Source: Thalassia testudinum
Taxonomy: Eukaryota > Streptophyta > Magnoliopsida > Alismatales > Hydrocharitaceae
Length of the DNA stretch: 64,000 nt
Assembly (NCBI GenBank): GCA_037157565.1
Contig: JAZHRO010000036.1
Span: forward strand, 14,868,501-14,932,500
Direction of reading: 5' to 3'
The position numbers were made by a program, and so were the translations under genes. Of the stretch, positions 13,183-64,000 are shown piece by piece; within the stretch, counting starts at the first letter, position 1; each line of letters starts with the position of its first letter. Under the pieces are notes generated by a model. It worked only from the letters and a program-made list of their open reading frames with translations, was not told the DNA's origin and did not search any database.

Positions 13183-13198
13183 CACCCCCATGCCTATC
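13183..13198 (-). other. polypurine tract next to the 3' LTR
   Basis: In sense GGCATGGGGGTG directly precedes the LTR start TGATGTG. Together with the next 25 bases, CACCCCCATGCC plus TCTTTTGCTAGTCCCTAGCAAAA is nearly identical to the same place in the LARD element at 49917. Confidence 0.8.
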
Positions 13199-15640: not shown

Positions 15641-15646
15641 TTGCAG

Positions 15647-16120: not shown

Positions 16121-16723
16121 TGTTGTGAGGCGTTTAGCATCAATTTATGAAATTCACATCGTAGTATGGTTGACAAAACCACTACAGCATTTAAATTTAT
16201 AAAACTCGAAATTAATGTGACTCTGAGGTCGTTCGTAGAGAGCAAATGTAGAATTCATAACACTACTCCTAATTAATAATACTGAGCACAATAAATTAAG
16301 GACCAAAGATATATTCAATGAATAATGTGCACAAAAATATATTCAATAATAGCATTCTTATCTCAAGAGATCAGTGGGATAAAATGAATAGAACCTCAAA
16401 ACAACGGTGAATTAGATCACCACATAAATCCCACATTTAAGCATATATCGAATGTCTCAATTAACTCCAATTTTCCAACAATGTCTCAACCACTTATCCT
16501 CATGAATAAGTCCACAGCATCAGAGCTCAAAATTAAGCCAAGGCTTCAGACATCTCAAGCAAGGCTCAGACGCCTTAAGCAATCACAAAGCACAGCAAGA
16601 GCATAGAGCACTAGCACAAAGGCACCAAGCCTCAACAGAGACCTTAGAGATGCTAAGTATAGAACGCACAGGCACACATCTCAAGGCAACAGGTCACATA
16701 TCCTGAAGCAAACCCTCCCCCCT

Positions 16724-22500: not shown

Positions 22501-22682
22501 TCTTTCTGGGTTTTAACGAGGCTTTAGGGAATGGGACATGAGTAAGATCATTGGATTTGGGGTCTTGAGCCTTAGTTTCTTGTATTTATCCTTTCCTTCC
22601 TCAGGCTCACCAGAGTTTGATTGACTAGAAGAGGGTAGTTTAGGATCCTGGGTTTGCGTTCTACTCCTCAAGGTAACAGAGT

Positions 22683-24250: not shown

Positions 24251-25584
24251 AAGGTAGAAGAGGTGGTTAATCAGCCATGGGATCTACTTGACTAAAATCC
24301 AACCTATGCCTTCTGGAATAGTCTAATGGTCCTTCTAAGCGAGGATATTCAATGACCTCCTTCTAAGCATAAATCAGGAAGGGGTCGGAAGGACTGGAGA
24401 ATAGAACTATGTAGCACAACAATATAAGCCTATCCTTAAGTTGGGTATCCTAAGAACCTAGGCTCCAAGATATATTCAGACCACAACACGAATTTTGTGT
24501 TGTCCTTAATCCAGAAGCTGGTTAGTTGGGCAAACGAAGTAGGGGGAGCATGTCCCAAAGGTCGCTAACTATGCCAAACCCCTGCTTGCTTAAGTTGTTT
24601 GACAATCAGGCCCCCTAACATAGCACCTTGTAGAGAAAGCAGACGTCACAAATTCGCACCACAGTTTGAGAAATACCCTGAAATGGACTGATTGGTCCTA
24701 AGGAAATGTCTACTCAATTTTAGATTAGGCTTAGGATAGTAGTGCTTTTGGAATGTGATGGGCCCTTAATATGGGTTGTGCCCTTAATGATTGATTGAAA
24801 TGTGGAGCAAGTGCACAACCAAGGTTTTCAAGCAAGATTATTTGGATGAGTAGATTTTAGAGTTCAAATCTTGCTTAAGTAGCTTTTAGGGTTTGAATTA
24901 AGGTTGATTCAATCAAGTTCACGAGACACACCACGATTTGCAAACATGGGTGAAGATGTTTTCCTTTGAAATCAAAATAAGATGGAGTCCTTGGTACTGA
25001 CATAAAATGTTTACCCTAAGGAGCAAGCTACTTGATGAATTATTTTTAGATGAAGTGGTGCAGCCCAAACAACTCAAACAATTGGCCTTGATGCACCACT
25101 AAATTAGGCACACAAGGTGTTATCTAATCTGATTTCTACTCGATTATATGTTGATGAGTATACCAGTTCCAAAAATCGGTTTACCAGTTGAGTGAGAAAA
25201 ATCAGAAGAGGTCGTATACCTCAAGTTGTGGGTGTATGTGATGTGTATGATAAGAAAATCCCACAATTAGATCAAAATTTGTTTCATATTTTTTTATAAG
25301 CGGAGGGTGAGGTGAGTGGAGGTGACAACCAAACAACCAAACAAAGCCTAGGGCTTATGAGAGCACCTAGGTTAATTAGGGTTTGAATTAAAGTGACAAA
25401 ATGAAAGCTATGGAGGGGGAAAGAATGGGGGAGCACTTACAAGGGTCTTCAACCGCACTTTACTCCTGTCTATAGCCCTTAGATCTCCTTATCGTGACAC
25501 CTACAAGACAATATAAGAAATAAAAGAGAGGTTAGAGAGCAAATAAGTATGAGAAATGCGAAAAAATAATCGGGATCTGTTGCC
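24251..25584 (-). other. Athila 5' leader
   Basis: Non-coding sequence between the primer site and gag. No open frame or conserved motif was recognised. Confidence 0.6.
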
Positions 25585-25602
25585 TCCCCGGCAACGGTGC
25601 CA
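25585..25602 (-). other. tRNA-Asp primer binding site of the Athila-type element
   Basis: In sense TGGCACCGTTGCCGGGGA, three bases after the end of the 5' LTR. It is complementary to the 3' end of plant tRNA-Asp with one mismatch (A for G at position 5). Confidence 0.93.
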
Positions 25603-25605
25603 AAA

Positions 25606-27631
25606 TGATTAGTGAGAAAATCGTTGCGAAAAGTTTGAGTTTGGAAAACCCGAGTCATTGAAAGCTCGCAAGAAAATCTGCTACCAAATAATATTTATAA
25701 TTGAAACTTTGGTGAGTCCCGGGTCGAACACAGGGAGGCTACATCGATTATATCCGCAATTATATTTTTTTGTAATTTCTTTATAAAGGAAACATTCACA
25801 AGGGCTATAAACAACTAACTACTTGCAATATAAACAAGAGAGAGAGAGAACAACTTTTATATGTAAGATAATGTCAATTACAACTAATTTCTGCAACTAG
25901 AAAGCTAAAAATCTATACTAGAAAGTGATAAAAGGATGGGGGATGAGAGATTATCCTCCTCGACGAATGCTTCAAGGATGAGCCAGACAGACGACACCTG
26001 GAGGAAGGAGAGCGAAGACAGAGGATGGAGGGCAAATGTGGAAGAATCAGGGATGAGGCAAGGCATCGACATCGCAGGATCCGCTTCCGGAATAGGGGCG
26101 AGAGGACGGCTGGCGAGAGCTCCGCAAAGGGGTGACAAGTGGAAATTTTATTCTTTTAACTCTAGCGAAGCTTCTTGTAGGTTGGGAGCACTAGAGCGAG
26201 CTTGTGAATGTTGTTCTTAGCTCTTTGGGAGGTTGCGAGATGGAGGAAGGGATCAAGAAAATGGAGGGAATGTGGGCTCTTTTATAGGCTTTTGGAGGGG
26301 GTTAAAATGGTCAATTTAGATCATTGGGATCGTGTGTTCATGGCATGAGACAAGGGCCGTGCCTCATGCTCCCACGTCCGCACGTCTGAGGAGCGCGTGC
26401 TACAAGCGCCAATTGATTTTCTTGCATGCTTGTCATGGAGAAATGCCAGCCATTAGATCCTCAACAAGTAGCTGCGAATGGTGCTCTGATCGCGCTTCAA
26501 ATCTTGATCGGACGGCCGATGAGGGCTGTGGACGTCTTAACTCGCTGGGTCCTCACATGTGGGAGGGAAGTTATCACCGTTGGATGGCCATCACAAGGCT
26601 GAGCTTCACACACACAAAGATTGGTGACCAGTGAGCTTCTTAGCTAACTAGTCATCCATCGAGCTAGCTGGTTGCACGCTCGAGAGACGTGCACCCCTGG
26701 GTGACCGATGCGTTTCTCACTTAGCCAGTCACCCGGCTAGTGCACAACTAGCTGGACAAGTGGTCGTTGATCTTCGATCATGGGCCTTGATCACGTGCAA
26801 GAGCGCACCTCATATCTTTTCACCGCGCGTACATTTCGCATAGACTAGCGTGTCGAATCGCGTGCGCATGTCCGCATGCCACGTGTCGAATTCAACGCTA
26901 TTCAATGTGGATTGCGCTGCTTTAGCCGACTGGAGCTCACAGTTGTGCACATAAATCCCAAGGGCAGGAATTGAACCTGCTCCCATGGCTTGGGAGAACC
27001 TCCTCCGACCATTACGCCAAGGGAGCTAAAGTGTTGAGTTGAGGAATTCCCTGCAGCCGATGGTCACACGATCGTGGCCATTGGATTTTTATCCAATAGC
27101 TAAGATCGCACGTCCAAGGAGCCTTTGAAGAAGGGCAAGCAATGTTGAGTGGTCTGGATGGCACTACGTGGAACCAGATGGATCATTCATCTTTAAATGC
27201 TTGTAGGTGGTGCGATGGATGTCAGATTGGGTCTATTTTCACATCGTTGGGTTGCGATTGTCAGTCCGAACCCATCCATGAGGTTAGATTTGTCATCTGG
27301 AGTTTGGATTTTCACCACCTTGCCCATTGGTCTCTGATCTTCCTCGAACTGCATATGATGATACAAAGGTCTGATCGGGACGATCTCAGAGGCGTTGGAC
27401 TCTGATCGTCGCCCTGATCAGATCTGTATGGTTGGATCTTCAATTCGAGGCCTAAATAAATATTGCCATGTCCCCTTACCACAAAAGGATGCAAATTAAT
27501 ATACAATTTGTACAAAATAATCTAAATGCATGATGAAGCATGTTATGCAATATTTATAATGTATGATACTTCTATAACACTAAGAACATGCATAAATAGA
27601 TATTTTAGGCCAATTAAATGTGTGCACATCA
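25606..27631 (-). mobile_element. 5' LTR of the Athila-type element (copy B, 2026 bp)
   Basis: This is collinear with copy A. In sense it runs from TGATGTGCACACATT (27631) to CTCACTAATCA (25606). The TATA box is at 26279-26286, the tRNA-like block at 26957-27026, the palindrome at 27159-27176 and the R/U5 word TCGAACACAGGGAGG at 25725. The plus- and minus-strand frames inside are shadows. Confidence 0.92.
26957..27026 (-). other. tRNA-like block in LTR copy B
   Basis: On the minus strand GCTCCCTTGGCGTAATGG (A-box-like, 27009-27020) is followed by GGTTCAATTCC (B-box-like, 26967-26977). This is the best-preserved of the four copies. Confidence 0.68.
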
Positions 27632-40003: not shown

Positions 40004-43000
40004 TGTTAAGGTTGATTTTGCGTGAAATATAATTAAAAGAGTCATAGTATAGTGCACGAAAAAACCTCAATCAAAAATAAAGTTTACGAAACTCTTTTTG
40101 GCAGTCTCGGTCAAACGTAGGGAGGTAGAAAACGTTCTAATTTGATTGACTTGAGAAAATGCGCATTGTTCATGGTTAATTTCTAACAAACCTAACTCTA
40201 ACCTAGAGACTAAATCTAACCTAACCTAAGCTAATCTAACCTGAAATCGCAATCTCCAATTCCCATATAAAGACCTCATTGATGGTATTATCTTCACGCA
40301 TTACGAAAGCATACGTAAGGAAAATGTAGAAGTTGAAAGTATGGGTCTCCGTGAGCACTACTTTGATCCTATGTACGCTACCAAGCAAGTTCAAAAACAC
40401 ATTGGCATCGTTAATGTGGATCGGAGTTGCCAAACAACTTTTTTTATTTTTCTTTTGTGTTTTTTCTGTACTTTTTTCAATATTCAAAATAAATCGCAAC
40501 TAATGAAAACCTAAGTGAAATGAAAATCGATGACTGTGCTTTTATAGTTGATTTGGTGGGATGGTTGAATCAAAAGGCGTACAAGATGCGAAAATGCGTC
40601 AGGAGTTGGTTGTGTTGTGGTTGTTATTATCGTAATGATGAAAATGATAACTAGCATATTTTTTCTATTTTTTTCTTTTGTGATATTTTTTAATTTTTTT
40701 ATTTGAAAGAAAACAAGTACGAGAAGACCTAAATATAATTACGTAAAACCCTATGTGCTAGATGGTGTGCGTGTGATGATGATGTGGTAATGAAGGGGAC
40801 GACCACCTCTCCTTGATGGCGATGGTGGTGATTGTGGAGGTGAAAAATCCATGAAGATGATGGTGATAGTGAGATCGATTTCACAAACCAATCATAAATA
40901 ATATGATGATCGAAACCAGGCACTAGATTGCATCACAAGAATGATCACATGATAATGCTGCACAAAAATAAATGTAGAGGAAAGCTTGCATAAAAATAAA
41001 TTTACACTATAAGAAGGCCACCTTGTTGGTCATGCCTTAAGGGCCATCGACTCTAGAGGGTGGTGGTGGCTAGACCTGGCCATTAGGGCCATCTACATGC
41101 CACAATAAAAGAAGAGGACACACCCAAGGCAAGGGAGGGCCTAGGCATGAAGAAGAAAGATAGAAAAACACTTGCGCAAGGTAAATAAAATAAGAAGATG
41201 GAGAAGGGATACTAGTATAAAGTTGATTGGAGGGTGACGATGGTGATCCGGAGAGGATGTCAGGGCCAGCCTTGTAGAGGTGGAGAGGTAAGGTGTAGTG
41301 GACGGCCTTGAGGTGGAGGAGGAAGGAGGAGGGGTGGTGACAAGAGGAAGAAGGTGAAGAGAGGATAGAATGCTAGGAGAGGATAGAATGAATTGGTGGT
41401 GTAAGGTTTTTGGCTTTTTATTGTGAGGGGAGGATAAGTTGATGCAACTTAGAGGTGGGAGGGTTGTTGGTTGTCGCCAACTTTATTTGGTTGAGGAGGA
41501 CTAGGTTGGCATGGAAAGGTCTAAGGGTGTGTGTGTGTTTGAATTAGGTAGATGTAGGTTGTAGTTTTGGTTGGAATTGGGTTGGGTTGACCTAGTTAGG
41601 ATGGGTCCTAGTCTAATTAGGTGGGGGTGAGTACAAATAGATCTATGTGAGTCTAATTAGGAGTGGTTTGACCTAATTAAATATGGGTGACCCTAATTGA
41701 ATCTTGGCTAAGCCAATTGACTGGATAAGAGTCAATTTAGGTTGTCCTTAACCTAATTAGGGATCTAGTAGGGGAGTTGGGTTAAGGTTTAGTAGAGTTG
41801 GGATAGGGATAAGTGGATAGGTGATGATAATGCCATCATTAGTCATAAATAACTTAAATTAGTCAGAATCCAATGATTGATGCTCCTAAACGAATGCTTG
41901 AGGACCATAATTCTTCACTGATCTCATTTAAGAAGATAAGGAAACATGGTTAATTCTGTTGTTTTAACAGCACATCACAAATGTAGATTAACACGGGGTT
42001 ACTTAGGGGTTAAATAAAGGACAAAAAGAAATTTAAAGACCAATAAATGGGCTTACACTGACTAAATCAGGGTTTTGCAAATTTCGAGGGTGAAAAAAAT
42101 ACTAAAAATCCTAATTATCAGCCACACTTTAATTAAAAGGGTTCCGGTCAAGATTAAATCAATGTAAACCTCCTACAATTCATGGAAAAATATTCTAGGA
42201 GGTTTGGTACCTTTGGTTTGACCAACTGAACCCATTTTGACCTCAAATAGAGATTTAGACGGGAATCTACCTTGATTTGGGCTTCTGTGCAATTTACCCA
42301 ATCAAACATGGTTAAAACTAAAATCCAAGTTCACCATTAGATTCCTTGGATCCAAATTAGGTTAATGCCAAAATTTGGGCCCAATTAGAGTTCATTCTAA
42401 CCAAGCTTGAATTATAGCCCCTAGAAACTCTATTTCTCGCATTCAGACCCCTAGTTTTCAAGTTTATTACAAATAGGCTCCTAACTTCCTCGTCATCTTC
42501 ACAAAAAGGTCTGTTCTACCATGAATAGTCTGAATGGAATCCCTAACCCAAACCCGCAAACTTCATCCGATGATTTCTCGTTTGTTTCAAGTCAAATCCC
42601 TCCAAATTTGGAGGAATTGATCTTGAAGTGATCCTCTATCAAATGCACAAGGCCATGAGGCCTGACTTGATTCCTACATAGCTAGCGAGCTCTTTGAAAA
42701 TCATGGATTTCAGTTGCTTCAATTACAAGGAAATCTCGCGAATTCCTCACAATTGAGGGTCAATTCCTCTTCTATTTAAGCTCTCCTAACTCCCAATGTG
42801 TTTCCCAGTCGAGTTTAGGCCACAAATCACCCTTCTTCTCCGGCTGTTCTCCAACTCGACTCCAGCGATCCTCACACCCTCCCTCTTCCATGCTTGCATC
42901 CGGCCAAAGAGCAACACCAAACCCCTCCCCAAGCTCCTCCAACCCTAGTCTACCACCACTAGGGCCCCTTCCTCCTTCCTCGTCACCATTCCACCTCATC

Positions 43001-44939
43001 GGAGAGTTCATCTTCTCTGCATCCAGTGAGGCAAGCTGGCAAGGATTCCGCCTTTCTCTCATCCAATAGCTAGGCTCCCTACTTCCTCTCCCTCTCTAAA
43101 CTAGAATTAGGTCCTTAGCACCTCAATTCAACCGCCGATTCACACTCTCCCCCTCAGCTTCTCCGCCTCCGACGTGATCATACAACTACCACATACCACC
43201 AAACGCCTCACCAACACCACCATAAGCTCTGTCTCATCTCCACGAACAAAAGCCCTAACTTTATTGAGCGTTTTGACCACCCAACATCTCTGCTAGAGAA
43301 CCCAACATTCCGCCGACCATCTCGACTCCGTCCGGCCACCCTCATTCACCAATCACCTTGCCACCACCACCATCACCTTCCATGCACCTCGGCGAAATTG
43401 CTGAACATTCTAATTGGGCCCAAGAGGTCATTCTCTTGTTTCAGGATCTTCGTCGGACATCTCACCATCGCCATCACCTTCTCTGTCATCATCTTCCGTG
43501 CTCTGACCATCTCCAGCCTCAATTCCACCTCCAGCTGACATGAAACTCATCCACAAATCCACCTACTGCTTCAATTGAGCGAGAGAGCAACACCAGCAGC
43601 TACAATCAAGGAGATCTTCCACAGCAGCATCGTATGAAGACAAAGGACTATTTTAGTCCCACATCGAAAGTGGAGACTTTTGAAATGCGTATATAATGCA
43701 TTTGGTGTGACACCTTATCGCCTCAACATTGAGGGGTGAGTTCCCTCCTCACTCACTGTACACACCTTGCCCGTGATCACGTGCACGCTGGCTTGGTCCC
43801 TCAGTCTCGACCCGATTACCCAAGAACCCACATACCCTTAATTCAGATCTAAGGAGAAAGAAAGAGAAAGGAAATTTTAAGGGGGAAGGGGGGAGATTTT
43901 GCACTGTAGCTCCTCAGGATGTGTGCCTAACACTTAGGCAATTCCAGAGGGTTTGTGCTGGTTGAACTTAAGGTGTCTAAGGTTCTCTCAGGACATTTGA
44001 TTTGAGAGAAAAATTGGTCTTGGCTACTGTGGAGATATTGAAATCTGATCTAATGTGGCTAAGTGTTTGACTACTGTTGAGAAATTGATTCTGACTTAGC
44101 TTGAGACTATTGTTGACCTTGGGAATTATGCCTAATTGAGGAGCTTAATTGGTGGTTCAAATCACCATTTTTATGATCTAATTATCTTTTTGTCCCATTA
44201 ATTCTATGATATATTTTTGGATTCTAATTGAAATATATTTGATTATTCATTGCATATCTTATGATTAATTATTGTGCTCATTGATTGAATTATTTGCCTA
44301 GTGATTGAATTCCATATTTGCTCCCTGCGAACGACCTCGAAACTCATGGATTTTTTGAGAATTATAAATTTAAATGTCGTATCGATTTTCGTCGCTATAC
44401 TACAACGCATTATTTTCCTAACTACAATGATTTCCGACTGCAACAATAGGGTTTATGGATAGTGGGGATAGGAATATGGATAGTACTATCCATGGTTCTA
44501 GGATTAGGATTAGATTGTCCGAAGGCAAGGGTGGTTCAAGATTCTAAAATAGGAGTAAGACTATCCTAGGCTTTATGGATAGGGAAAGGGGTAGGTCTAG
44601 GGTTTCTTCTTCTTTATTATTTTATGCAAGCTTTTCTCTCTTTCTCTCTCTTCAGTCTTCAGTCCTCTTTATTCCTTTTCTTTATTCTTCTTGTTCAACA
44701 ATCTACAGTCTTCCTCTCTTCAGTTATCCTGCATCCAGGTCAGGTTCATCTCCTGATCTCCTTATTGCCTGCAATCAAGAATAAAGCATCAAATAACAAC
44801 GCAACATGGCAGTCTTTTATGTACAACTATACATAAGGATAAGATGCAATATACGAATGATATGCATGCAATATTTACATATTAGCTAGGATTCCAACAT
44901 TATTTAGGTTGATTATGACCTATGCTTGCTATGCAATCA
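40004..44939 (-). mobile_element. Athila-type LTR insertion G, holding a family-2 solo LTR
   Basis: The left end TGTTAAGGTTGATTTTGCG is followed by the family words GTCATAGTATAG and TCAAACGTAGGGAGG (40110). The TATA box TATAAAAG lies at 40539-40546 (minus). The far end has ATGATATGCATGCAATATTT like the other Athila-type LTRs and stops at TATGCAATCA (44939). Flanks GCTAT (39999-40003) and ATTAT (44940-44944) agree apart from two transitions. Without the nested LTR it is about 2.3 kb. The minus-strand frame 40236-40499 is a shadow. Confidence 0.55.
41822..44445 (+). mobile_element. family-2 solo LTR, 2624 bp
   Basis: It starts TGATGATAATGCCATCATTAG and ends CGACTGCAACA. A perfect ATAGG duplication lies at 41817-41821 and 44446-44450. 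It is homologous to the copies at 16121-20249 and 46842-59448, including GCTCCCTGCGAACGACCTCG (44320) near the 3' end. The 3' part includes CACCTTATCGCCTCAACATTG. Frames inside (42772-43543) are shadows. Confidence 0.93.
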
Positions 44940-46841: not shown

Positions 46842-47147
46842 TGATGGTAACACCATAATTCATCAAACTAGCTTAAATTAATTGCAATCAAGAGATAAAT
46901 GCTCTTAAATGATCGCCTGAGGACCGTAATTCCACTTTGACCTGATTTGAGAAGAAGACAATAAACAGGGTTAACTCCATTGTTTTAACAATACATCACA
47001 AATATAGATTAACCACAGGGTTATTCAAGGGTTAATTAGAGGTCAATTGAGCATTAAAGACTAAGAAGTGGGCTTACATTGATTGAATCAGGGTTTCATG
47101 CATTTCGCGAACCAAAACAAAATTAAAAACCTTAATTATTAGCCCCA
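46842..47147 (+). mobile_element. family-2 LTR, left segment (interrupted by the LARD)
   Basis: It starts TGATGGTAACACCATAATTC and runs parallel to 41822-42130. It ends ATTATTAGCCCCA, where the last five bases are the LARD duplication. The remainder is 57189-59448, giving about 2.56 kb in total. The target duplication of this LTR is unclear (ATGTC left, TTTTT right). Confidence 0.85.
47143..47147. repeat. target-site duplication CCCCA (left)
   Basis: It is identical to 57189-57193. Removing the LARD restores ATTAGCCCCACTTAATT, which matches the uninterrupted family-2 copy (ATCAGCCACACTTTAATT). Confidence 0.93.
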
Positions 47148-47658
47148 TGGTGGCTCCACGTCGTTTGTGTTGACAACCGGGTTTTATTGTTATAGCGTCG
47201 TAGTATAGCCAGTTGTTGCCATCATTTCAAATATATAAATTTTTTTTACTCGGAAAAGAGTTCCCGAGGTCGAACTCAGGGAGCAAGTTGTATTCTAGAG
47301 ATATACATGTTTCTTTTACAAAAATAAAGAAAGAGAGAGAAAGAATTTGTTGTCTTCTTTTCTCTTTGTTTCTCCTCGTCTCAGATCTTCTTCTTCTTTG
47401 TCTGCAGAGGTGATGTTCTTCTTCTGCAGTGGTGATGCTCTTCTTCTTCTTCCAGCTGTTCCTGCTCTTCCTTTTTCTTCTGTCTTTCTTCAGATCTTCT
47501 TCTTTCTTCTTTGTTTTTCTTCTTTCAGTTCTTCCCTTGTTCTTTTGTGTTCTCCTCTGCCTCGCCTTCTTCTGTTGTTCTTCAGATCTCCTTCTTTCTT
47601 CTTTTCTTTTTCCAGTCAGGACGTCGCCCCTCCTTCTTTCTTCTTTTCCCTTCAGGAC

Positions 47659-47684
47659 GTCGTCTGATTTCCAAATCAGACGAC
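47659..47684. other. perfect 12-bp inverted repeat in LARD R-U5
   Basis: GTCGTCTGATTT and AAATCAGACGAC are separated by CC. It is repeated unchanged in the other LTR at 54931-54956. Confidence 0.85.
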
Positions 47685-48344
47685 TTAAACTGCCTGTTGC
47701 TACAGTGTCTCCCTCAGCTTCCTTCTTCTTCCGCGGTCCTTCTTCTTCACCTGTGCCTGCACACTTCAGAGCTTACGTCAGAGGACAAAACCTACTCTAC
47801 ACCCTCCCCCCCCGCGTCTCTCTCTCTCTGAAACCACTCTTGGGAAAGCTCTCCCAGAGCTGCCGGGTAGTCGGGTACGGGTCGCGCCCGGGTCCAGGCC
47901 CACCGGTGTGCGTGGTGGGCGAGGAGTGCAGGTCAGTCTTAAGTCAGGTCGGGTCAGGTCCGCGGGGCGTGAGCGCGGACGAGACCGGGTAACCGGGCGG
48001 GTGAAGGGGACCTCACCCCGTGTGCTGAGGCAGTAAGGCTAATGCACAAAATCAATTTAAACGGTGAAAAGGTTGTGAGGCTTACCGATGTGGGACTAAA
48101 CGGAGGCCTTTCCTCGTGTGCACCTGCTGGGAGACCGCGGCCTAGCTTCTGCAGCTGCGGCTTCGATTTGCGTCGGTTGCTGGCTGCCTGCCTTCGCAAG
48201 ACTCCCCGTAATCCGCAGCAGCTGGAGACCGCCCTCAAGCCTGAAGCGCGGGAGAAGCTGCTTCAATGTGCGTTAATGGCGGTCGAACCTCAAAACCTGT
48301 CGGACACGAATATGGCCTCTCGGCCTGATCAAACCACTGGGGAA

Positions 48345-48367
48345 CCTTCGCCGTGGCACGGCGAAGG
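48345..48367. other. 10-bp inverted repeat in LARD LTR
   Basis: CCTTCGCCGT, loop GGC, ACGGCGAAGG. It is the same in the second LTR at 55617-55639. Confidence 0.85.
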
Positions 48368-48714
48368 TGTGGAGCTGCGCGGCAAGCCGCAAGGTGGTGT
48401 CTGGCGGCAGCCCTAGGTTGGACTGCAACCGGAGGAATGGGTTTGTTCGGGGGAGCGTTACGGAGGTGTGGAGTGGCAGTGGAGGGGTGGGGGGTGCTTA
48501 GTGTGATGAGGCGGAGGTTCGGTGAGGGTCGGCGAGGTGTGTGAGGCTGTGGAGCGATGGGAGCATCTCGCCGGAGGGTGGCCGGAGACGAAGGGGGTGA
48601 CGATGGTCAGGGTCGGTCGAGGGCATAATTGAACAAATTGAAACCGGGGAAAGAAAGAGGAGAGGAAGGGAAGTAGTTCTAGCTTACTTGCAGGGACGAA
48701 GGGGGAGCAGCAGG

Positions 48715-48737
48715 GCGACAGTCGTATCGACTGTCGC
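48715..48737. other. 10-bp inverted repeat in LARD LTR
   Basis: GCGACAGTCG, loop TAT, CGACTGTCGC. It is the same at 55987-56009. Confidence 0.85.
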
Positions 48738-48982
48738 CGGAGAAGAAGATGCTCAGGGAAAGGGGCGGCGGCGAGCAGAGAGCCGGAGAGACGCCAGCTG
48801 GGTGCGGCGTGGCGCGGGAAGAGCAGGGGAGGAAGTCTCTGCTGCTGGTATTGCGGCAGAGCGAAGAGGAGGAGGGGGAGGAACCGCCGGAGCTGGTGAG
48901 CGTCTGCCGGAGAGAGAAGAGAGGAAAGTTGGGGGTTTTCTCCGTCAGTTCCAAGCTGCCCCGGTCGGTAGAGCAACGGGGG

Positions 48983-48992
48983 GTATTTATAG
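48983..48992 (-). promoter_or_regulatory. TATA box of LARD 3' LTR
   Basis: CTATAAATAC on the minus strand. The copy in the 5' LTR (56255-56264) would drive the element transcript, starting about 30 bases further downstream in sense. Confidence 0.75.
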
Positions 48993-49064
48993 GGATCAAA
49001 ACAGGGGGGAAGGCGGAGGGAGACGACGTGTCTCCCTCGCCGGAGGATGGCCGGAGACGAAAAC

Positions 49065-49098
49065 CCATACCGTCCGTGCGTTCGCACGGCCGGTATGG
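49065..49098. other. 16-bp inverted repeat in LARD U3
   Basis: CCATACCGTCCGTGCG and CGCACGGCCGGTATGG are separated by TT, with one mismatch. It lies about 70 bp upstream of the TATA box in sense and is the same at 56337-56370. Confidence 0.85.
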
Positions 49099-49193
49099 TG
49101 GGCTACAGCGACCAGGGGGTGTCCCTACGACGGCTGACGACGCAGGGCACCCCCGGTTTGCTTGCCAGGCTTTCCCCCTCACCCTGCGCGGCG

Positions 49194-49224
49194 CCATGCT
49201 CCGCGCAAGGTCGCCGGAGCATGG
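49194..49224. other. 10-bp inverted repeat in LARD U3
   Basis: CCATGCTCCG and CGGAGCATGG are separated by 11 bases. It is the same at 56466-56496. Confidence 0.85.
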
Positions 49225-49916
49225 TGCTGGCAGGTTTTGCAGGGGGGACCTGAATGCGAAGAACGAAGGAGAGTTAGGGGCCAAAATGCGATGGTTCAAA
49301 AGTTGAGGGCCAAAAAGTAAATATATGAGGACCAAAGTGTAAAGTCGGTCAAGGAGGTTTCTTCTTAGGCTCAAGTTTTTATACATGATTAATTAGGACC
49401 TAAGGAATCTGATGGTGAATTTCATTTCTATATTAAACCTTGTTTGACCGGTCAATTTATGCAAAAACCCAAATTAAGTTATTAATTGGGCATGGTTCTC
49501 AATGTAGGTCAAAATGGGTTCTGAAGGCCAAATTGAAGGTTCTAAACCCTAGAGATTATTTTTCTATGAATTTTAGAGGGTTTATTCTATTTTTACTTTG
49601 CCTCGAACCTCGTGAATTGAAGTGGGTTGTTTTAGGGTTACAGATTATCATTTAGTTTCTTGGAAGTGCTGTAGCCCTTGCTAGATCATCTCATCCCACT
49701 TTTATTCTTGTTAAGTTGCTTTGACCTATGTTTGGGCCCTGAATTACCCTGTATGCAGATTATACTGGTAAAATTGCATTTTTACCCCTTATGACTTGTT
49801 TTCTTCTCAAACTCAGAATTCTCTGAGTTAAGCCTTTCCTTAAGATATGTAGGAGCTTTTATCCTTTGTATTAGGTCAAAATGAGCTAGTTATGGCTCAT
49901 GATGAGGTTCTCATCA

Positions 49917-49932
49917 TACCCCCATGCCTAGC
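49917..49932 (-). other. polypurine tract of the LARD
   Basis: In sense GCTAGGCATGGGGGTA directly precedes the 3' LTR. The following interior bases (CTTTTGCTAGTCCCTTAGCA on the plus strand) match those at the same place in the Athila-type element. Confidence 0.8.
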
Positions 49933-51430
49933 TTTTGCTAGTCCCTTAGCAAAAACTTAAGGTTTCAACCCTTGTTCTAGACCATGAAGTTTTTAATAGT
50001 TTTAGATAAGTGCCTTTTTTATTTGAGCATAGATTAGGTTAGAATGCTGACCATAGGCCTAAAAGGTACTCTAGTACTAATCAAGATCCAAATCTGTCTA
50101 GCCTTAGCCTCAGTCTTTAGCAAAGGTTTTTAAGGTCCACAAGAACTAACCTAGGGTTTATTGGACTTTGTGGTTAAAGCACCCGTGCTTGAAATGATTT
50201 TAGCCCTGGCTCAGTTCGCAGTGCGTTTTGTAAGAGAGAGATAGAAAGTTTTTCTGTTTGGAGAGTTTTCTCTCTCTTTTTCCTTTTAGTTCTAGCTTAG
50301 GATTGGCCTTTCAACACGGTCTGTATCAGATTCCTTGCTCCCATCATCAATCCTCAAGGGTTCCTGGCGATCGATGCTTCGAGATAGCACCGCCCATGGC
50401 AACCCCCGGAACCCTGGCTATTGAGATTTTGAGATAATCCCATCCATGGTGTTCCGTGGCCGAATCCAGACCCTGGCAATTGACACTTCGAGATAATGCC
50501 ATCCATGGAATCTGAACCAGTAGAGTGCTTACATGCTCCCAGTAGGATATGTAAATATCCTAAGAGACAAGCACCGAGGAGATGATATTTTGTTACGCAT
50601 CTTCGAGGGGATTTCCCGCCTCTCTGCGCTGGGAACTCGTCCAAATCAACTTGTGTTGATCGGCCGCTCCTATTCTAGGTGTTCTTTTCAGAATTTTGCG
50701 ACGCTTCTGCGTGATTCTGATTTTTACGCTTACTGAACCAGGCTGTGTGTGAGGTTAGGGTGCTTAGGTTAACGAGGCCGAATACTCCCTAAGCCTTAGA
50801 CCTAATACTTCAGCTTTTCATTTTCCTCAACCTCTTGAGAAGTGTCCAGATCTTAATGGGTACTAAGAGTCTATTCAAGAATGCCTAAGGTTTGCATTCT
50901 TACTAATCTCATTGTGCACTTTTCAGTTATTTTCTTGACTGAGGTCTAGAACTTAGGTTAATTCCTTAGTTCCTTACTAATGACTATCACCTTTTCTCAT
51001 AATTTTGTGCTCCTTTTTCATTTTGTTTCTTTTCTCCTTCACAAAATTTCCTTCTCCTCTTTTCCTCTTATTCTTTTTCGAAAATTTTTTAATTTTTATG
51101 GTGTTTTTGGCATATGTGAATTTTTTTGTTTGAAACCTTTTCTTATAAGTTTTTGCACTTTCATACCCCCCCATGCCTAAGATTTGCAATGTCCTCATTG
51201 TAACCTAGGGGTTTTTATTCAACTAAGTTCATACATTAGGATAGCTGTTTTGATGAGTGAATGGGTCGGGGTGACTGTTGCGGACGATTTCTAATCTCAG
51301 ATGCAAGCACCTGAGGTGGAGTCGGCTGTCCTAAAGTGTGAACTTCAAGTGCAAAAAGCTGTCAGAACAAGTTTCAGGTTTTCAAAGAGAATGACGGGCT
51401 GCCTCCCGTTGAGCGCTAAATTTGATGCCT
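49933..51430 (-). other. LARD 3' non-coding region
   Basis: It contains three imperfect units (50363, 50413, 50472) that share CCTGGC, TTCGAGATA-like and CCATCCATGG words, and a second polypurine-like motif TACCCCCCCATGCC at 51164-51177. That motif is placed 1.25 kb from the LTR, as in the Athila-type element. Frames here (50354-50644, 50977-51198) have no recognisable content. Confidence 0.6.
51164..51177 (-). other. second polypurine-like motif of the LARD
   Basis: TACCCCCCCATGCC on the plus strand (GGCATGGGGGGGTA in sense). The Athila-type element has TACCCCTCCATGCC at 14439-14452, at nearly the same distance from its LTR (1247 versus 1256 bp). It could be a second plus-strand primer. Confidence 0.55.
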
Positions 51431-53296
51431 TCAGCCAAGCGGGAAATGTGATGGAGAGGGGATGGTCAAATCAGCGGAGTTTTGTATGACAAGCACCTTG
51501 ATTAAGAGCCTGGTTGGTCCAACCAGGTGCTTGTTCAGATCAACAGGCTGATGATGCAACCAAAACCCAATCAATCTGGTGGGTTGATAGATGTGGATAA
51601 AAAGGTGTGGAACCCACCATATACTATGAAGCTTAGATAGATGTGGAAGTGTAAACGCAGGGTTTGGCTGAGTCAAATCAGCCTGGTCAAAGTAGGGACT
51701 CGTAGAATAATCAGTGGTTGATGCAGGAACCCTACAGGGGTGATTAGAGAATGATAGAATATGGTATGTAGTCTGATCAATGTTCGAAACCCGATGTGGA
51801 AATGCAATCGGCTCGGTGAGAGGTGAATCTGAATAGAAATTGAGTCCGGTTGCGGGTCGGGGTTTGGGAGAGGTTTCGATCCGTTCTGTGTGTGCGGACG
51901 AGGTGGCCATTGTGTACGAGGGCTCTTCTAGAAACAGATGATAGGTGGTTTTCTGTAGAGAGTCCTCTGGGTAACTATCAAATGCCGGAAGAGTGTCTGT
52001 AGGATGAAAGGAATCGGATTCGAGACAAAATTTGGATTCTTGGTTGTAATCACTCTTGGCATTTTCTATTTTTGGTTCCTGAGGATCGAAAAGGAATGAT
52101 TCTGTGTTATCAGTGATCTCGGGAATCAAGACCTCAGAGTCGGAGTCAGAGTCATGTGAACTGAGGTCGTAGATAGGCCTGGCGTGTTCAGGAAGGGGAA
52201 TCTCTCCGCAATTATAGTCAGATCTGAAATTGTCGGAGAGTTGGCGAAAATGAGATTCATGATCATGAATTCCACCACAGCAAAAATCATCAAATGTGGA
52301 ATCAGCAGCCTGATTGGGGTCTAGCCTATATGTCAATTCTGGGCTCGAAAAGGTATTCTGTCTAGGCTCAAGCTCCAAGCTGGTAGGATAGACCCAATTA
52401 AAATCCAACTCGTCCAACTCCTCAGTCTCTGTATCATAAATTGGCATGTTCTCTGGAAAATCTATCAGATTTTCTGAAGATGTTGGAGAGGGATATTCAT
52501 CAAATAAAGGCCCGGAATCATAGTCTGTAAAAATTTGATCTTTCTCATAAGGGGCCTCATAATCTTCCCAATAAGTTTCAGATCTAGGTTCTAGGCTTAG
52601 GATGTGGGTAGAATTATTAGAACCTAAGTCCGAATAATCTTCGAGGGCCACCTTATCAAAATAAGGGGCGGAATTTATACCCTCAGAAGGTTCAGTTCTG
52701 ATCTCATTGTTGCAGGAGTTTTGAAATTCTAGGCTTGGCAATTCATGGTCTAAGTTTGGCTCATCATTGTGTTCTCCTGCAATATCCCACCCTAATTCAA
52801 CATTGTCTTCTATCTGGGTTGGGATTTTACAACCACTTTGTGCCTCAATCCCGAGATCTGGGAAACTGGATTGTTCCTTAATACTGTTCCAAGATGGTTC
52901 ATCCTCTGTTTCTGGTATATACGGGTATTTCTGGTTGATAATTTATTCTACTGATTTCATCATTTCTACCCGTTTCATAAGGGCATCTTGGTGTTGTTCC
53001 CAAAGTACAGGATTTGTCAAGCATTGAAGGTATTCAGATTGGTGTAATTTTTCCATCTCAATGTATCCTGTCATGAGCATATCTCGGGTTGATCCTTTTG
53101 AAATTTCAGTCAATAGAATTTGGGCACAGTTTATGATGAAAGCTGTGGTTGTTGGGACATCAACCTGAATGTTTTCTACTGGTGTTGAGGGTTTGATTTC
53201 ATAGGTTTCAAGGGCATCCTCAATCATCTTATCTTTCATGGATCTCAGATATTCAGGTTTTTTGAATGGTAGTCTTGCTAGGTAATTAGGCTGCAT
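51431..53296 (-). CDS. unidentified acidic protein frame of the LARD, one internal stop
   Basis: I do not recognise this protein. One reading frame runs from an ATG at 53294-53296 to TGA at 51431-51433, broken only by TAA at 52943-52945, giving 117 and 503 codons on either side. I translated across the stop and found the frame open. The first part is mixed and probably helical (QPNYLARLPFKKPEYL, INCAQILLTEISKG). The second is strongly rich in Asp, Glu, Ser and Pro (EELDELDFNWVYP, DLSSHDSDSDSEVLIPEI) and ends in a more hydrophobic tail (IWWVPHLFIHIYQPTRLIGF). No gag domain, zinc knuckle, DTG/DSG protease motif, YxDD box or integrase motif is visible. It occupies the place of gag-pol between primer site and 3' region. 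It could be a captured host gene, a remnant of an extra retrotransposon frame, or an element-specific accessory protein. Upstream the frame closes with TGA at 53342-53344, so a spliced start is possible. Confidence 0.6.
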
Positions 53297-54396
53297 AATT
53301 GGATCAGGTGGTGGAATCAAGATATAGAACCAAAGTTTGAATCAAGATGGAAGAAGGGGATTTTGTTCAGAATCAGAGGAAAGAGGGGCTATGTGAATGA
53401 TTTCTGCAAAAACAAAGGAGCCGAGGTTTAGCCTCGGGGAGAGTGAATTTCTATAGGAGGTTTCAAGGACCTCCTGAAAAATACTGAAGGGCTGGATGAG
53501 ATAAGCAGGTGCTGGACCCAATCAAGACACCCAAAAATTGTTGGGTGACTATAGAGGTTCGGGGCAGATGGACCCCTTGATCAGAAAGATCGTCCACCTG
53601 AGAATTACCTGGGCAGCCAGAGAGGGAGAGTCCCGCGAAGACCCCTACACGGTAGAGCGTCCCCACGGGTTACAGGGTTTCCCCCACCCGACCTCTCTTG
53701 TCACTGAGATTCCAGGTAGACCAGAATGGGGATCTTGACCTCTTAAGTCTACCAATTTTTACTTTAAGATCAGGGTGCTTTAAGGTTTCACTTGAATTCT
53801 TAGGTATTTTGAGTGAGAAAGTGACCTAATTTTAAGGTTGGTTGACCCAAGGAGTCAACTTTACCTCTTGTTCCCTTGAGAGCTTTTGGGTCCTTTCTTT
53901 TTGGGTTCAAGTGTTTAGAGAGCCAATTGTTTAGGGTTTCTCTTAATAAGTATGTTCAATCAATGGTTTAGGCACACTTCTTTTGGATTTTCTCCATTCT
54001 TGATTTAAGTAGTGTGTCTCTAAAGCCCTAATGTTGAATCTTAGGTTGGCTCTACTTGGTCCAGTTAGTTCTTTGTTGGGTAATTAGGGCTCAAGCAAGA
54101 ATGTGTTAGCCCTTAAATACCCTTAATAGTGTGCAGGACCAATGAGTTGAAAACATGCAACTCTTTATGGTTACTAAGTATGGAAGACAGGTTAGCCCTA
54201 TATTGCTTGTTCTTCTCTTTTTTTTTTCTCTTTAGAGTTTAGGGGTTAATAGCGAGAGGAGAAATTTACCTGTCCTCGGAGTGGTTGTTGTGCGGTTGCT
54301 TGTCTTCTTGATTTCCTGTAGTTTTCTGCACAAAAGAGAGGAGATTATCAGAAATTAAAAAGAAACAGGAATGTTTACCTCTAGAATAGCCGTTGC
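53297..54396 (-). other. LARD 5' leader
   Basis: This lies between the primer site and the unknown frame, with no recognisable coding content. A T-rich tract is at 54216-54232. The plus-strand frame 53538-53738 is a shadow. Confidence 0.6.
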
Positions 54397-54414
54397 TCCC
54401 CGGCAACGGCGCCA
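54397..54414 (-). other. tRNA-Asp primer binding site of the LARD
   Basis: In sense TGGCGCCGTTGCCGGGGA, an exact 18-base complement to the 3' end of plant tRNA-Asp including CCA, five bases after the end of the 5' LTR. Confidence 0.96.
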
Positions 54415-54419
54415 AAAAA

Positions 54420-57188
54420 TGGTGGCGCCACGTCGTTTGTGTTGACAACCGGGTTTTATTGTTATAGCGTCGTAGTATAGCCAGTTGTTGCCATCATTTC
54501 AAATATATAAATTTTTTTTACTCGGAAAAGAGTTCCCGAGGTCGAACTCAGGGAGCAAGTTGTATTCTAGAGATATACATGTTTCTTTTACAAAAATAAA
54601 GAAAGAGAGAGAAAGAATTTGTTGTCTTCTTTTCTCTTTGTTTCTCCTCGTCTCAGATCTTCTTCTTCTTTGTCTGCAGAGGTGATGTTCTTCTTCTGCA
54701 GTGGTGATGCTCTTCTTCTTCTTCCAGCTGTTCCTGCTCTTCCTTTTTCTTCTGTCTTTCTTCAGATCTTCTTCTTTCTTCTTTGTTTTTCTTCTTTCAG
54801 TTCTTCCCTTGTTCTTTTGTGTTCTCCTCTGCCTCGCCTTCTTCTGTTGTTCTTCAGATCTCCTTCTTTCTTCTTTTCTTTTTCCAGTCAGGACGTCGCC
54901 CCTCCTTCTTTCTTCTTTTCCCTTCAGGACGTCGTCTGATTTCCAAATCAGACGACTTAAACTGCCTGTTGCTACAGTGTCTCCCTCAGCTTCCTTCTTC
55001 TTCCGCGGTCCTTCTTCTTCACCTGTGCCTGCACACTTCAGAGCTTACGTCAGAGGACAAAACCTACTCTACCCTCTCCCCCCCCGCGTCTCTCTCTCTC
55101 TGAAACCACTCTTGGGAAAGCTCTCCCAGAGCTGCCGGGTAGTCGGGTACGGGTCGCGCCCGGGTCCAGGCCCACCGGCGTGCGTGGTGGGCGAGGAGTG
55201 CAGGTCAGTCTTAAGTCGGGTCGGGTCAGGTCCGCGGGGCGTGAGCGCGGACGAGACCGGGTAACCGGGCGGGTGAAGGGGACCTCACCCCGTGTGCTGA
55301 GGCAGTAAGGCTAATGCACAAAATCAATTTAAACGGTGAAAAGGTTGTGAGGCTTACCGATGTGGGACTAAACGGAGGCCTTTCCTCGTGTGCACCTGCT
55401 GGGAGACCGCGGCCTAGCTTCTGCAGCTGCGGCTTCGATTTGCGTCGGTTGCTGGCTGGCTGCCTTCGCAAGACTCCCCGTAATCCGCAGCAGCTGGAGA
55501 CCGCCCTCAAGCCTGAAGCGCGGGAGAAGCTGCTTCAATGTGCGTTAATGGCGGTCGAACCTCAAAACCTGTCGGACACGAATATGGCCTCTCGGCCTGA
55601 TCAAACCACTGGGGAACCTTCGCCGTGGCACGGCGAAGGTGTGGAGCTGCGCGGCAAGCCGCAAGGTGGTGTCTGGCGGCAGCCCTAGGTTGGACTGCAA
55701 CCGGAGGAATGGGTTTGTTCGGGGGAGCGTTACGGAGGTGTGGAGTGGCAGTGGAGGGGTGGGGGGTGCTTAGTGTGATGAGGCGGAGGTTCGGTGAGGG
55801 TCGGCGAGGTGTGTGAGGCTGTGGAGCGATGGGAGCATCTCGCCGGAGGGTGGCCGGAGACGAAGGGGGTGACGATGGTCAGGGTCGATCGAGGGCATAA
55901 TTGAACAAATTGAAACCGGGGAAAGAAAGAGGAGAGGAAGGGAAGTAGTTCTAGCTTACTTGCAGGGACGAAGGGGGAGCAGCAGGGCGACAGTCGTATC
56001 GACTGTCGCCGGAGAAGAAGATGCTCAGGGAAAGGGGCGGCGGCGAGCAGAGAGCCGGAGAGACGCCAGCTGGGTGCGGTGTGGCGCGGGAAGAGCAGGG
56101 GAGGAAGTCTCTGCTGCTGGTATTGCGGCAGAGCGAAGAGGAGGAGGGGGAGGAACCGCCGGAGCTGGTGAGCGTCTGCCGGAGAGAGAAGAGAGGAAAG
56201 TTGGGGGTTTTCTCCGTCAGTTCCAAGCTGCCCCGGTCGGTAGAGCAACGGGGGGTATTTATAGGGATCAAAACAGGGGGGAAGGCGGAGGGAGACGACG
56301 TGTCTCCCTCGCCGGAGGATGGCCGGAGACGAAAACCCATACCGTCCGTGCGTTCGCACGGCCGGTATGGTGGGCTACAGCGACCAGGGGGTGTCCCTGC
56401 GACGGCTGACGACGCAGGGCACCCCCGGTTTGCTTGCCAGGCTTTCCCCCTCACCCTGCGCGGCGCCATGCTCCGCGCAAGGTCGCCGGAGCATGGTGCT
56501 GGCAGGTTTTGCAGGGGGGACCTGAATGCGAAGAACGAAGGAGAGTTAGGGGCCAAAATGCGATGGTTCAAAAGTTGAGGGCCAAAAAGTAAATATATGA
56601 GGACCAAAGTGTAAAGTCGGTCAAGGAGGTTTCTTCTTAGGCTCAAGTTTTTATACATGATTAATTAGGACCTAAGGAATCTGATGGTGAATTTCATTTC
56701 TATATTAAACCTTGTTTGACCGGTCAATTTATGCAAAAACCCAAATTAAGTTATTAATTGGGCATGGTTCTCAATGTAGGTCAAAATGGGTTCTGAAGGC
56801 CAAATTGAAGGTTCTAAACCCTAGAGATTATTTTTCTATGAATTTTAGAGGGTTTATTCTATTTTTACTTTGCCTCGAACCTCGTGAATTGAAGTGGGTT
56901 GTTTTAGGGTTACAGATTATCATTTAGTTTCTTGGAAGTGCTGTAGCCCTTGCTAGATCATCTCATCCCACTTTTATTCTTGTTAAGTTGCTTTGACCTA
57001 TGTTTGGGCCCTGAATTACCCTGTATGCAGATTATACTGGTAAAATTGCATTTTTACCCCTTATGACTTGTTTTCTTCTCAAACTCAGAATTCTCTGAGT
57101 TAAGCCTTTCCTTAAGATATGTAGGAGCTTTTATCCTTTGTATTAGGTCAAAATGAGCTAGTTATGGCTCATGATGAGGTTCTCATCA
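54420..57188 (-). mobile_element. 5' LTR of the LARD
   Basis: It corresponds to 47148-49916 with a constant offset of 7272. The differences seen are scattered single substitutions (for example T/G at 47155 versus 54427). The promoter TATA box is at 56255-56264. Confidence 0.95.
56255..56264 (-). promoter_or_regulatory. TATA box of LARD 5' LTR
   Basis: CTATAAATAC on the minus strand. This copy is in position to start the genomic transcript. A 16-bp inverted repeat lies just upstream in sense. Confidence 0.75.
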
Positions 57189-59448
57189 CCCCACTTAATT
57201 GGAAAGCTTTTGGTCAGGATAAAATCAATCTAAACCTCCTAAATTTCATATAAAAATATTCCAAGAGGTTTGCTACCATTGGTTTGACCATCTAAATCCA
57301 TTTTGACCTAGAACAGAGTTTTAAACGGGAATTTACCTTGATTTGGGCTTCTACATAATTTACCCAATCAAACTTTGTCAAAACCCAAATCCAAGTTCAC
57401 CATTGGATTCCTTGGGTTCAAATTAGGTTAACACCAAACTTTGGGACCAATCAAAGTCCATCTTGACCTAGTTTGCAATTCAGTCCCTAAAATCTCTATC
57501 CGTCACATTTAAGCCCCTAGGTTTCGAATTTTTCACAAATAGCCCCCTAACTTCATCTTATTCACAGTTATGCCCCTGCCACCATGAATAGTGTGAACGG
57601 CGGTCAAAACCTAGCACTGCCACCTTTGACTGACTCAAAACACCAACAAATCATCACTAAATCCCACCAAATTTGGTAGGATTGGTGTTCAGACGATGGA
57701 GAATCATTCAATCAAAGAAAGCATGGGTTTTTCTTGATTCGAAATTTGACTCCCATGTATGTAAACCTCCAATTTAAGGCCCTAATGGAGCTCTATATAA
57801 GCTCCAAAGGGATTAGCAACCAATTTGAGCCCGGTTCCAAGCCAAATCCCCTACTACTTCTCTTCTTCGGCCACCTCTACTGTAGCTCTGGCGACCTTCT
57901 TCCTCCGTCATCCTCCGGTCGGCCAAAGGTCAAATTGACCGACCCTCCACCTTCCTCTCTCTCTTCCACCTCTCGCCGACCAAAGCGAAGGCACTCTCCC
58001 CCTTTCCTCGTCGCCCTATCTCTCACCAGAGGTATCTTCGTCCTCGGCTTCGACGGCCACACCAGCGAGGGCTCCCTATCCCCTTCGTCCCTTAGATTAG
58101 GTTCTTCCTCCTCTCCCTCTCTAAATCCTTCCTATACCCTTAGACCTTAGTATTAACCACCGTACACCTCTCTCCCCCATCATCTTCTCCACGATCGGTG
58201 AAGCTCTAGTGAGCTCACCTGGCCACGTCACGCCACCAAATGACCCTACGACACCACCAAAACCTTCCATTCACTCCCACCATCAAAATCCCTCTCCTAA
58301 TTTAGGGTTTCATCCACTCCACACTCTCTCTAAACAAACCACCTCACAATCATCCTTGCCATCACCGATAGAGCACCATGCACCTCCAATCTCCTTGCCT
58401 CCATCACCGTTAAGTTCCTTGTCTCATGGCAAATCTCCTAAACCAATTAATTGGGTCGAAAGGCTGTTCTTGTGCATTAGAGGTGTTCATCGGTGAGCTT
58501 CGAATCTCCACCTTCGTCCGCAACCCTTCGGCCGTCATCATCACCATTGTCATCTCCATGACCTACGATTCATCTTGACAAAACTCTCCCTGCCAACAAT
58601 CGAGCGAAAGCGCCTTCAATAGCTCAAATTGGAGCTCCAATTCACAGCATCTTCACAGAAGGAAGAGGAGGCTGTTTAGTCCCACATCGTGGGCACCAAA
58701 CTAGGAGAGGCACATAAAGGGGATTCTTGACATAAGTTCACTACCTCTCACAAGGGGTGAGGTCCCCTTACTCTCTCCCTTACTCCTCGCCCACCACCAC
58801 TGTCGATGGGCCTGGTCCCTATACCCGACCCAATTACCCGCTATTATTCACCCGTATATCAAGTTCTGTAAGAGGAAAGAGAAAAGAGAAATTCTGAGGA
58901 GGGTAGGGGAGGTTTTGCCTCGAGGTGCGTGCATACATGCCTCTATGCTCAACACTTAGCCGATTCAAGAGGGTTGTGCCTTGTGCTTGTGCTAAGCCTT
59001 GGCGACTTTAAGGTGTCTAACCTAAGGATCTGACATCTGATTTGAAGGCACTAAGGACTTATTGAATATTTGGCTTACATGGTTAAGTAAAAAATTAGAG
59101 TTCTGTTGGCATTGAGATATGTGCTTAATTGTTGGGTATAATTAGTGATTCAAATCACCATTTTTAGGTTTTAAATTCTCCCTTTATCCCATTGATTTAT
59201 GAGATACAAATTGCTATTATTGAATATCATTTTGAGTAGATCATTTATTCATTGAATATCTCATTATGAACTGGTTATTGTGCTCATTACTTATTACTTC
59301 GATTAGTGATTTGAATTCCATATTTGCTCCCTGCGAACGACCTCGAAACTTACGTTTGTTTTTCAAGCACTTATAAATTTAAACATCGATTCACTTTTGT
59401 TGAGTATACTACAATGCATATTTCAAACTCGAGGAAAGCTTGTTAACA
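57189..59448 (+). mobile_element. family-2 LTR, right segment
   Basis: It begins with the CCCCA duplication and continues CTTAATTGGAAAGC, parallel to 42128 onward in the complete copy. It ends CGAGGAAAGCTTGTTAACA. It includes GGGGTGAGGTCCCCTTACTC and GCTCCCTGCGAACGACCTCG (59322), as in the other copies. Frames 57734-58496 are shadows. Confidence 0.88.
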
Positions 59449-63754: not shown

Positions 63755-64000
63755 GTACGAAAACTGCACTACAACAATTATTTAAGCAACCTTCCTCACG
63801 TATCCAACAAGGAGTTGAGAAGCTCCTTCCATAAAATGTTTTTCCCTATAGGGAATACCAATGCACCAAGAAGAGCTATCAGTACCTTCTCCCACCAACC
63901 AAGAGAACAATTTTATGAAGCTTGCGAGAGATTCATGGATCTGATTAGAAAATGCCCATATCATGAGGTTCCTAGATGGCAATTAGTGCAAATCTTCTTT
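63755..64000 (+). pseudogene. element H gag, start of domain, cut by the window end
   Basis: An open stretch of 82 codons after a TGA at 63752-63754 reads ELRSSFHKMFFPIGNTNAPR and EQFYEACERFMDLIRKCPYH followed by EVPRWQLVQIFF. This is the retrotransposon gag core (PF03732 type) of Athila/Tat-like elements, close to the usual FFPxGKTNALR and CPHHxxPxWQLVQxFY. Upstream sequence in other frames has stops, so gag is probably already broken here. The rest lies beyond position 64000. With the primer site at 60434 and plus orientation, this gag belongs to element H. Confidence 0.8.

Follow-up and report, generated by a model that had tools for sequence, protein, structure and literature searches.

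A recently inserted, non-autonomous LTR element, probably of Ty3/gypsy type, with a probably conserved internal reading frame in Thalassia testudinum

Introduction

Non-autonomous long terminal repeat (LTR) elements are usually regarded as empty passengers. Among them, large retrotransposon derivatives (LARDs) have LTRs, a primer-binding site (PBS), a polypurine tract (PPT) and an internal region of more than 4 kb without gag-pol (PMC9033089). Here, we analyzed 64,000 nucleotides of the Thalassia testudinum genome (assembly GCA_037157565.1, contig JAZHRO010000036.1, positions 14,868,501 to 14,932,500, forward strand; hereafter the window), in which a first-pass annotation had placed a very recent non-autonomous LTR element at 47148-57188. 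The insertion is real, recent, non-autonomous and of a known kind. We consider it quite probable that this young element is a LARD of Ty3/gypsy type, Athila-like, that was copied by a gypsy helper and carries a probably conserved accessory frame. If true, a protein has been kept without copying machinery, such passengers would contribute something of their own, and a defined frame would be available to test. For a plant gypsy element, a second tRNA contact, a possibility considered below, would broaden the picture drawn from yeast Ty1 and Ty3.

Like described LARDs, the young element combines LTRs, PBS and PPT with a long internal region devoid of gag-pol. Unlike them, it has a frame with relatives in separate collections, and its cis signals recur in a gag-pol element of the window. 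Open reading frames (ORFs) longer than 700 bp were reported in 4 of 11 Medicago families of LARDs and terminal-repeat retrotransposons in miniature (TRIMs) (PMC2533021). In rice, the defective element Dasheng was linked by sequence similarity to its helper RIRE2 (PMC9033089), and the same kind of link is drawn here. Dasheng and RIRE2 are similar in their LTR ends, whereas the young element and its gag-pol neighbor are similar in the PBS and PPT block, with unmatched LTRs.

The soybean elements Diaspora and Calypso, of the Athila lineage, have the same 5 bp PBS offset with 18 nt of tRNA-Asp and, like the young element, a long LTR and a long leader with predicted splice sites before the coding region (PMC1142308). 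The PBS type and offset of the young element are those described for Diaspora, in keeping with the Athila lineage. Diaspora encodes gag-pol, whereas the young element encodes none and carries an unrelated frame. An Athila ORF-1 domain occurs in 16% of Athila elements (PMC6317226). Retand elements with antisense TRP28 ORFs are likewise plant Ty3/gypsy elements with extra ORFs, some of them recently active and non-autonomous (PMC11963269). Unlike in Retand, the frame studied here is in sense orientation, and no internal ORF among the 11 of at least 60 aa on both strands matched TRP28 (Transposase_28). Ty1 and Ty3 have bipartite primer sites, and in Ty3 the D arm of the tRNA contacts U3 (PMC5371799). 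The second RNA-tRNA contact that we propose would likewise reach the D arm. It differs in that the candidate site lies 53 nt upstream of the PBS and would pair with nt 3-16 of tRNA-Asp.

Results and Discussion

Structure and age of the insertion

The PBS lies on the minus strand beside 54420; the minus strand is therefore the sense strand, the element reads from 57188 to 47148, and the LTR at 54420-57188 is the 5' LTR. The parts of the element and its target-site duplication (TSD) are as follows.

54420..57188, minus strand: 5' LTR, 2,769 bp, with 9 substitutions relative to the 3' LTR
56256..56263, minus strand: TATAAATA box (TATA), LTR position 926; second copy starting at 48991
54455..54460, minus strand: AATAAA, putative poly(A) signal, LTR position 2729
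54397..54414, minus strand: PBS TGGCGCCGTTGCCGGGGA of tRNA-Asp type, 5 bp after the LTR
49917..49931, minus strand: PPT CTAGGCATGGGGGTA, adjoining the 3' LTR
47148..49916, minus strand: 3' LTR, 2,769 bp, on the PPT side
47143..47147, no strand: TSD CCCCA, copy 1
57189..57193, no strand: TSD CCCCA, copy 2

The LTRs end in TG..CA and enclose an internal region of 4,503 bp. About nine differences and no indels had been counted by eye over 2769 bp. Exact alignment of the two LTRs gave 2,769 bp, 9 substitutions and 0 indels, and BLAST listed the same 9 mismatches. The divergence under the Kimura two-parameter model (K2P) was 0.00326, rather than several percent. Six of the nine differences are transitions, three of these at CpG and two at CHG, which is the pattern expected for methylated plant DNA. 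At an assumed 1.3e-8 substitutions per site per year, the insertion is 125 ky old (95% interval of the count, 57-237 ky). The earlier figure of roughly 0.1-0.2 My thus holds at this rate, but slower assumed rates move the age to 233 ky (7e-9), 652 ky (2.5e-9) or 1.25 My (1.3e-9). BLAST of the window found no second copy of the element within it.

The cis signals named in the first-pass annotation were all recovered, including the perfect CCCCA duplication, the TATA box and the PPT. The PBS matches 18 of 18 nt of what we take to be the 3' end of plant tRNA-Asp, so the primer site is exact as claimed. The end of the PPT, ..TAGGCATGGGGGTA, abuts the 3' LTR, and its pure G run is only five bases long.

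The annotation had also stated that the element has no pol of its own, and the searches agree. Neither the 11 internal-region ORFs of at least 60 aa (both strands) nor 5 scanned ORFs of the LTR, out of 13 listed for each LTR, matched a gag or pol family in Pfam. A tblastn search of the element with 69 frame pieces, namely 68 from 13183-25605 on the minus strand, a range that includes the nested LTR, plus the gag fragment at 63755, returned only alignments of 7-29 residues at E 0.029 or worse; the same queries detected a gag fragment at 63842 with E 1.9e-7. The TR-GAG class is defined by a gag domain. Neither such a domain, including that of Athila, nor an Athila ORF-1 domain was matched in the element by Pfam. 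Tautomerase-like (E 0.13) and ALGX (E 0.13) matches in other short ORFs were not accepted, and no hammerhead ribozyme, as in a Retrozyme, was matched in the window at the Rfam gathering score. With an LTR pair, TSD, PBS, PPT and more than 4 kb of internal region without gag-pol, the element has the structure of a LARD. Its tRNA-Asp PBS 5 bp after the LTR is a trait of the Athila lineage.

A gag-pol neighbor of the proposed helper type

Movement in trans by a helper is inferred from the PBS and PPT only, both of which also occur in a neighboring gag-pol element of the window.

11217-27631, minus strand: decayed Ty3/gypsy gag-pol element, LTRs 81% identical, with a related LTR nested in its RNase H region
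51168..51180, minus strand: internal second PPT-like sequence TTAGGCATGGGGG of the young element, 1,249 bp from the 3' PPT
49933..49954, minus strand: hairpin TTTTGCTA-AGGGAC-TAGCAAAA of the young element, just upstream of the PPT

In the neighbor, RVT_1 and RNase H score above the Pfam cut-off, and an integrase match (rve_3, E 4e-4) falls below it. We call this neighbor Athila-like, partly on reverse transcriptase (RT) motifs that are presumably of this lineage. Its PBS is of the young element's type with one base different, and a block of 37 columns before the 3' LTR is 94.6% identical between the two elements (E 2e-6). Both have a second PPT-like sequence at nearly the same distance from the 3' PPT (1,249 bp in the young element, 1,258 bp in the neighbor) and a hairpin before the PPT, with different loop lengths. 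The PPT junction of the young element folds with z = -4.1, the lowest value among 80 windows (mean -0.8, standard deviation 1.2).

Candidate second tRNA-Asp contact

A further complement to tRNA-Asp lies near the end of the LTR.

54468..54481, minus strand: GCTATACTACGACG in the 5' LTR, complement of tRNA-Asp nt 3-16, 14 pairs with 2 wobble; copy at 47196-47209 in the 3' LTR

The site ends 48 nt before the LTR end and 53 nt upstream of the PBS, and its partner is the same tRNA, which would be compatible with an extended primer complex. Related LTRs also have tRNA-Asp matches near their ends, of 16 nt (44392), 12 nt (59405) and 11 nt (16167). Contiguous runs of such length are rare: the observed run was reached in 1 of 150 simulated LTRs for the young element and in 0 of 150 for the LTR at 41822. 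When tRNA bodies were shuffled, the observed run was reached in the LTR ends by 0 of 300 for the young LTR, 0 of 300 for 41822 and 2 of 300 for 59440; this test covered these three LTR ends, and the third relative (16167) was left out. The complement is a candidate that may act as a second primer contact.

The competing explanation, that the complement is the target of a 5' tRNA fragment (tRF) in host silencing or a chance match, has in our judgment an even chance of being correct. A 19-nt 5' tRF of tRNA-iMet targets Athila6A, and a 5' tRF-Asp is present in Arabidopsis (review PMC8215267). Moreover, duplex energies that allow gaps do not separate LTRs with the site from those without, at odds with the run-length results. 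Shuffles did as well in 95, 57, 863 and 319 of 2,000 cases for LTRs with the site and in 841 and 116 of 2,000 for LTRs without it, so that an LTR lacking the site (116) comes close to the young LTR (95). The LTRs are also related, so they do not count as independent cases, and the motif had been spotted ahead of the tests. The run lengths and the identity and position of the tRNA partner speak for a primer contact. A relic of tRNA copying, considered as another source of the complement, is ruled out by the position upstream of the PBS. Among the papers listed in literature searches, none described a second tRNA site in a plant gypsy element, which does not prove its absence.

A probably conserved internal frame

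The internal region holds a long frame in two parts.

52946..53320, minus strand: first part (125 codons) of the internal frame, with its first ATG at 53296; relatives P0004 and P0005
52943..52945, minus strand: in-frame TAA between the two parts
51434..52942, minus strand: second part of the internal frame, 503 codons, TGA at 51431-51433; relatives P0003, P0006 and P0007

The two parts share one sense frame and are separated by this single TAA. In 1,000 simulated internal regions the longest open run was 270 codons, against 503 in the second part. The frequency of G at the second codon position is only 0.10 in this part, which is acidic (pI 4.3) with a basic stretch in its last 73 residues.

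Five protein relatives of the frame were found in the JGI and ENA sets. For the second part, P0003 is 47% identical in a gapped alignment over 70% of the query (about 62% in two tblastn blocks), P0006 is 65% identical, and P0007 is 65% identical over half of its 174-residue query. For the first part, P0004 and P0005 are 74% and 86% identical, respectively. P0003, P0006 and P0004 align along the frame. The last 64 residues of the second part are the best kept and recur in P0007, where the sequence upstream of them differs; P0003, P0006, P0007 and the frame in the window all terminate at the same residue. In neutral simulations without indels, the sequence stayed free of stops in 1.0% (P0003) and 2.4% (P0006) of 3,000 runs. 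This simulation is based on P0003 and P0006; P0007 was left out because its stretch includes nonhomologous sequence. These comparisons suggest that the frame is probably conserved, as an accessory one.

No acceptable known domain was found in the frame in Pfam, in a PDB sequence search (both profiles) or in PHROGs. A PTHB1_GAE match of the first part (Pfam, E 0.06-0.17) was below the cut-off and was not accepted. Predicted folds were unusable, with a mean predicted local distance difference test score (pLDDT) of 46 for the first part, helical in this low-confidence model, and of 39 for the last 174 residues of the second part. DNA of the relatives was found neither in the viral-contig collection (frame alignment, four DNA patterns) nor in the genome-contig collection (alignment), which hold viral contigs and prokaryotes and say little on plants. 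None of the papers listed in literature searches describes the frame, which does not prove that no description exists.

Proposed mechanism and rival readings of the frame

From these elements, the following route may be proposed. RNA polymerase II would transcribe the element from the TATA box at LTR position 926, and splicing within the long leader, or its bypassing, would make the internal frame accessible to translation. Packaging of the RNA and its copying from tRNA-Asp would rely on proteins of an Athila-like helper, proposed because the PBS and PPT block are of this helper's type. The helper's integrase would then insert the element with a 5-bp duplication. The 14-nt complement near the LTR end may serve as the second primer contact. 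The frame most likely encodes a protein that would aid the element, perhaps by binding RNA, promoting packaging or escaping silencing, and is split by a stop in this copy. A bolder version, a plant gypsy LTR lineage in which one conserved protein, from a family so far undescribed, took the place of gag-pol and in which an extended tRNA-Asp primer complex is formed (3' end on the PBS, 5' part 53 nt upstream in the LTR), appears improbable to us.

Several observations weigh against a helper-copied Athila-like LARD with a conserved frame. Because the young element lacks an RT, an Athila assignment would have no RT, RNase H and integrase phylogeny behind it, and we do not place the element in that lineage. 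Each by itself, the PBS and the internal PPT resemble those of the neighbor only weakly (E 0.045 and 0.88). The neighbor is old, its LTRs being 81% identical, gives no blastn match between its LTRs and the young LTR at E 1, and has no second tRNA site (no run of at least 11 nt in either LTR); it therefore shows the type of helper and not the helper itself. Splicing of the leader is based on consensus-like sites judged by eye, with an acceptor-like site near 53405, and introns upstream of gag were not then known according to the 2005 Diaspora paper (PMC1142308). For the frame, the protein collection holds predicted proteins only, so open relatives are favored. P0005 departs from the alignment after about 60 residues, as if frameshifted, and P0007 aligns at its end only. 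No ATG precedes codon 166 of the second part, and with the in-frame TAA this copy may not make the full protein.

The frame might instead be a passenger, a decaying env-like or captured gene left after the loss of gag-pol and functionless here, which we regard as possible though somewhat doubtful. The in-frame stop and the frameshifted appearance of P0005 fit such decay, as do the large in-frame gaps by which the relatives differ from each other. Extra ORFs also occur in most Ogre/Tat/Athila elements, where their function is questioned (REXdb, PMC6317226), and long ORFs in half of 11 Medicago TRIM/LARD families (PMC2533021). A passenger of this kind is harder to reconcile with P0003 and P0006, which remain open at about 65% identity, and with the position of the frame. 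It stands before the internal PPT-like sequence, where the neighbor has its gag-pol, and not between the two PPTs.

It is unlikely that the end of the frame was kept for RNA structure, in packaging or dimerization, rather than for protein. The RNA of the conserved end, around the near-palindrome CCTGGTTGGACCAACCAGG, has a better fold than 199 of 200 shuffled sequences (z -3.58), and its conservation may therefore be partly structural; the last 64 residues are also common to P0007 despite its different upstream sequence. Against this reading, P0003, P0006 and P0007 share their end residue with the window frame.

Insertion site and related LTRs

A probably conserved accessory frame in a recently inserted LARD remains our preferred reading. 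The insertion site of the element lies within an older, related LTR.

46842..47147, plus strand: first part of the older related LTR, host of the insertion; its last 5 bases are a TSD copy
57194..59440, plus strand: second part of the older related LTR; 3' boundary approximate, no TSD identified

This older LTR is probably a solo LTR. A paralogous LTR at 41822-44445, itself a solo LTR with its own TSD (ATAGG), is about 63% identical to it and uninterrupted at the insertion place, and thus provides a paralogous empty site. Reading the LTRs at 41822 and 46842 as one element was rejected on their identity of about 63%, the lack of a PBS after the first and the first LTR's own 5-bp duplication ATAGG. 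A third related LTR (about 16150-20249, minus strand) is nested in the RNase H region of the gag-pol neighbor, where the RNase H Pfam match is interrupted at 20250 and resumes at 16133. Over its first 279-670 bp, the young LTR shares 61-64% identity with the three related LTRs, so that the families of the young element and of its target are related.

An older element whose LTRs were made identical by gene conversion or an assembly copy is very improbable: LTR positions 1-789 are without any difference (about 5% by chance, by simple arithmetic), but the nine differences over the remainder, the unique flanks, the perfect TSD and the 503-codon open frame argue against it. Assembly duplication of the LTR in particular is unlikely because of the unique flanks, the TSD and the scattering of the nine differences.

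Minor features of the LTRs and window

A 32-bp near-perfect palindrome, CATACCG..CGGTATG, found by eye at 49066-49097 and at the corresponding position of the other LTR, precedes the TATA box by about 75 bp and is a possible promoter element. The LTR start (57172-57188 and 49900-49916) is an inverted repeat, TGATGAG-AAC-CTCATCA. The related LTR starting at 20249 on the minus strand has TGATGGT-AAC-ACCATCA, with both arms altered together, and the repeat is imperfect in the related LTRs at 41822 and 46842. LTR positions 601-2200 form a GC-rich and CpG-rich block (59-66% GC), the rest of the LTR having 34-45% GC. At the end of the window, a gag fragment (PF03732) at 63755-64000 runs off the edge and probably belongs to another gypsy element.

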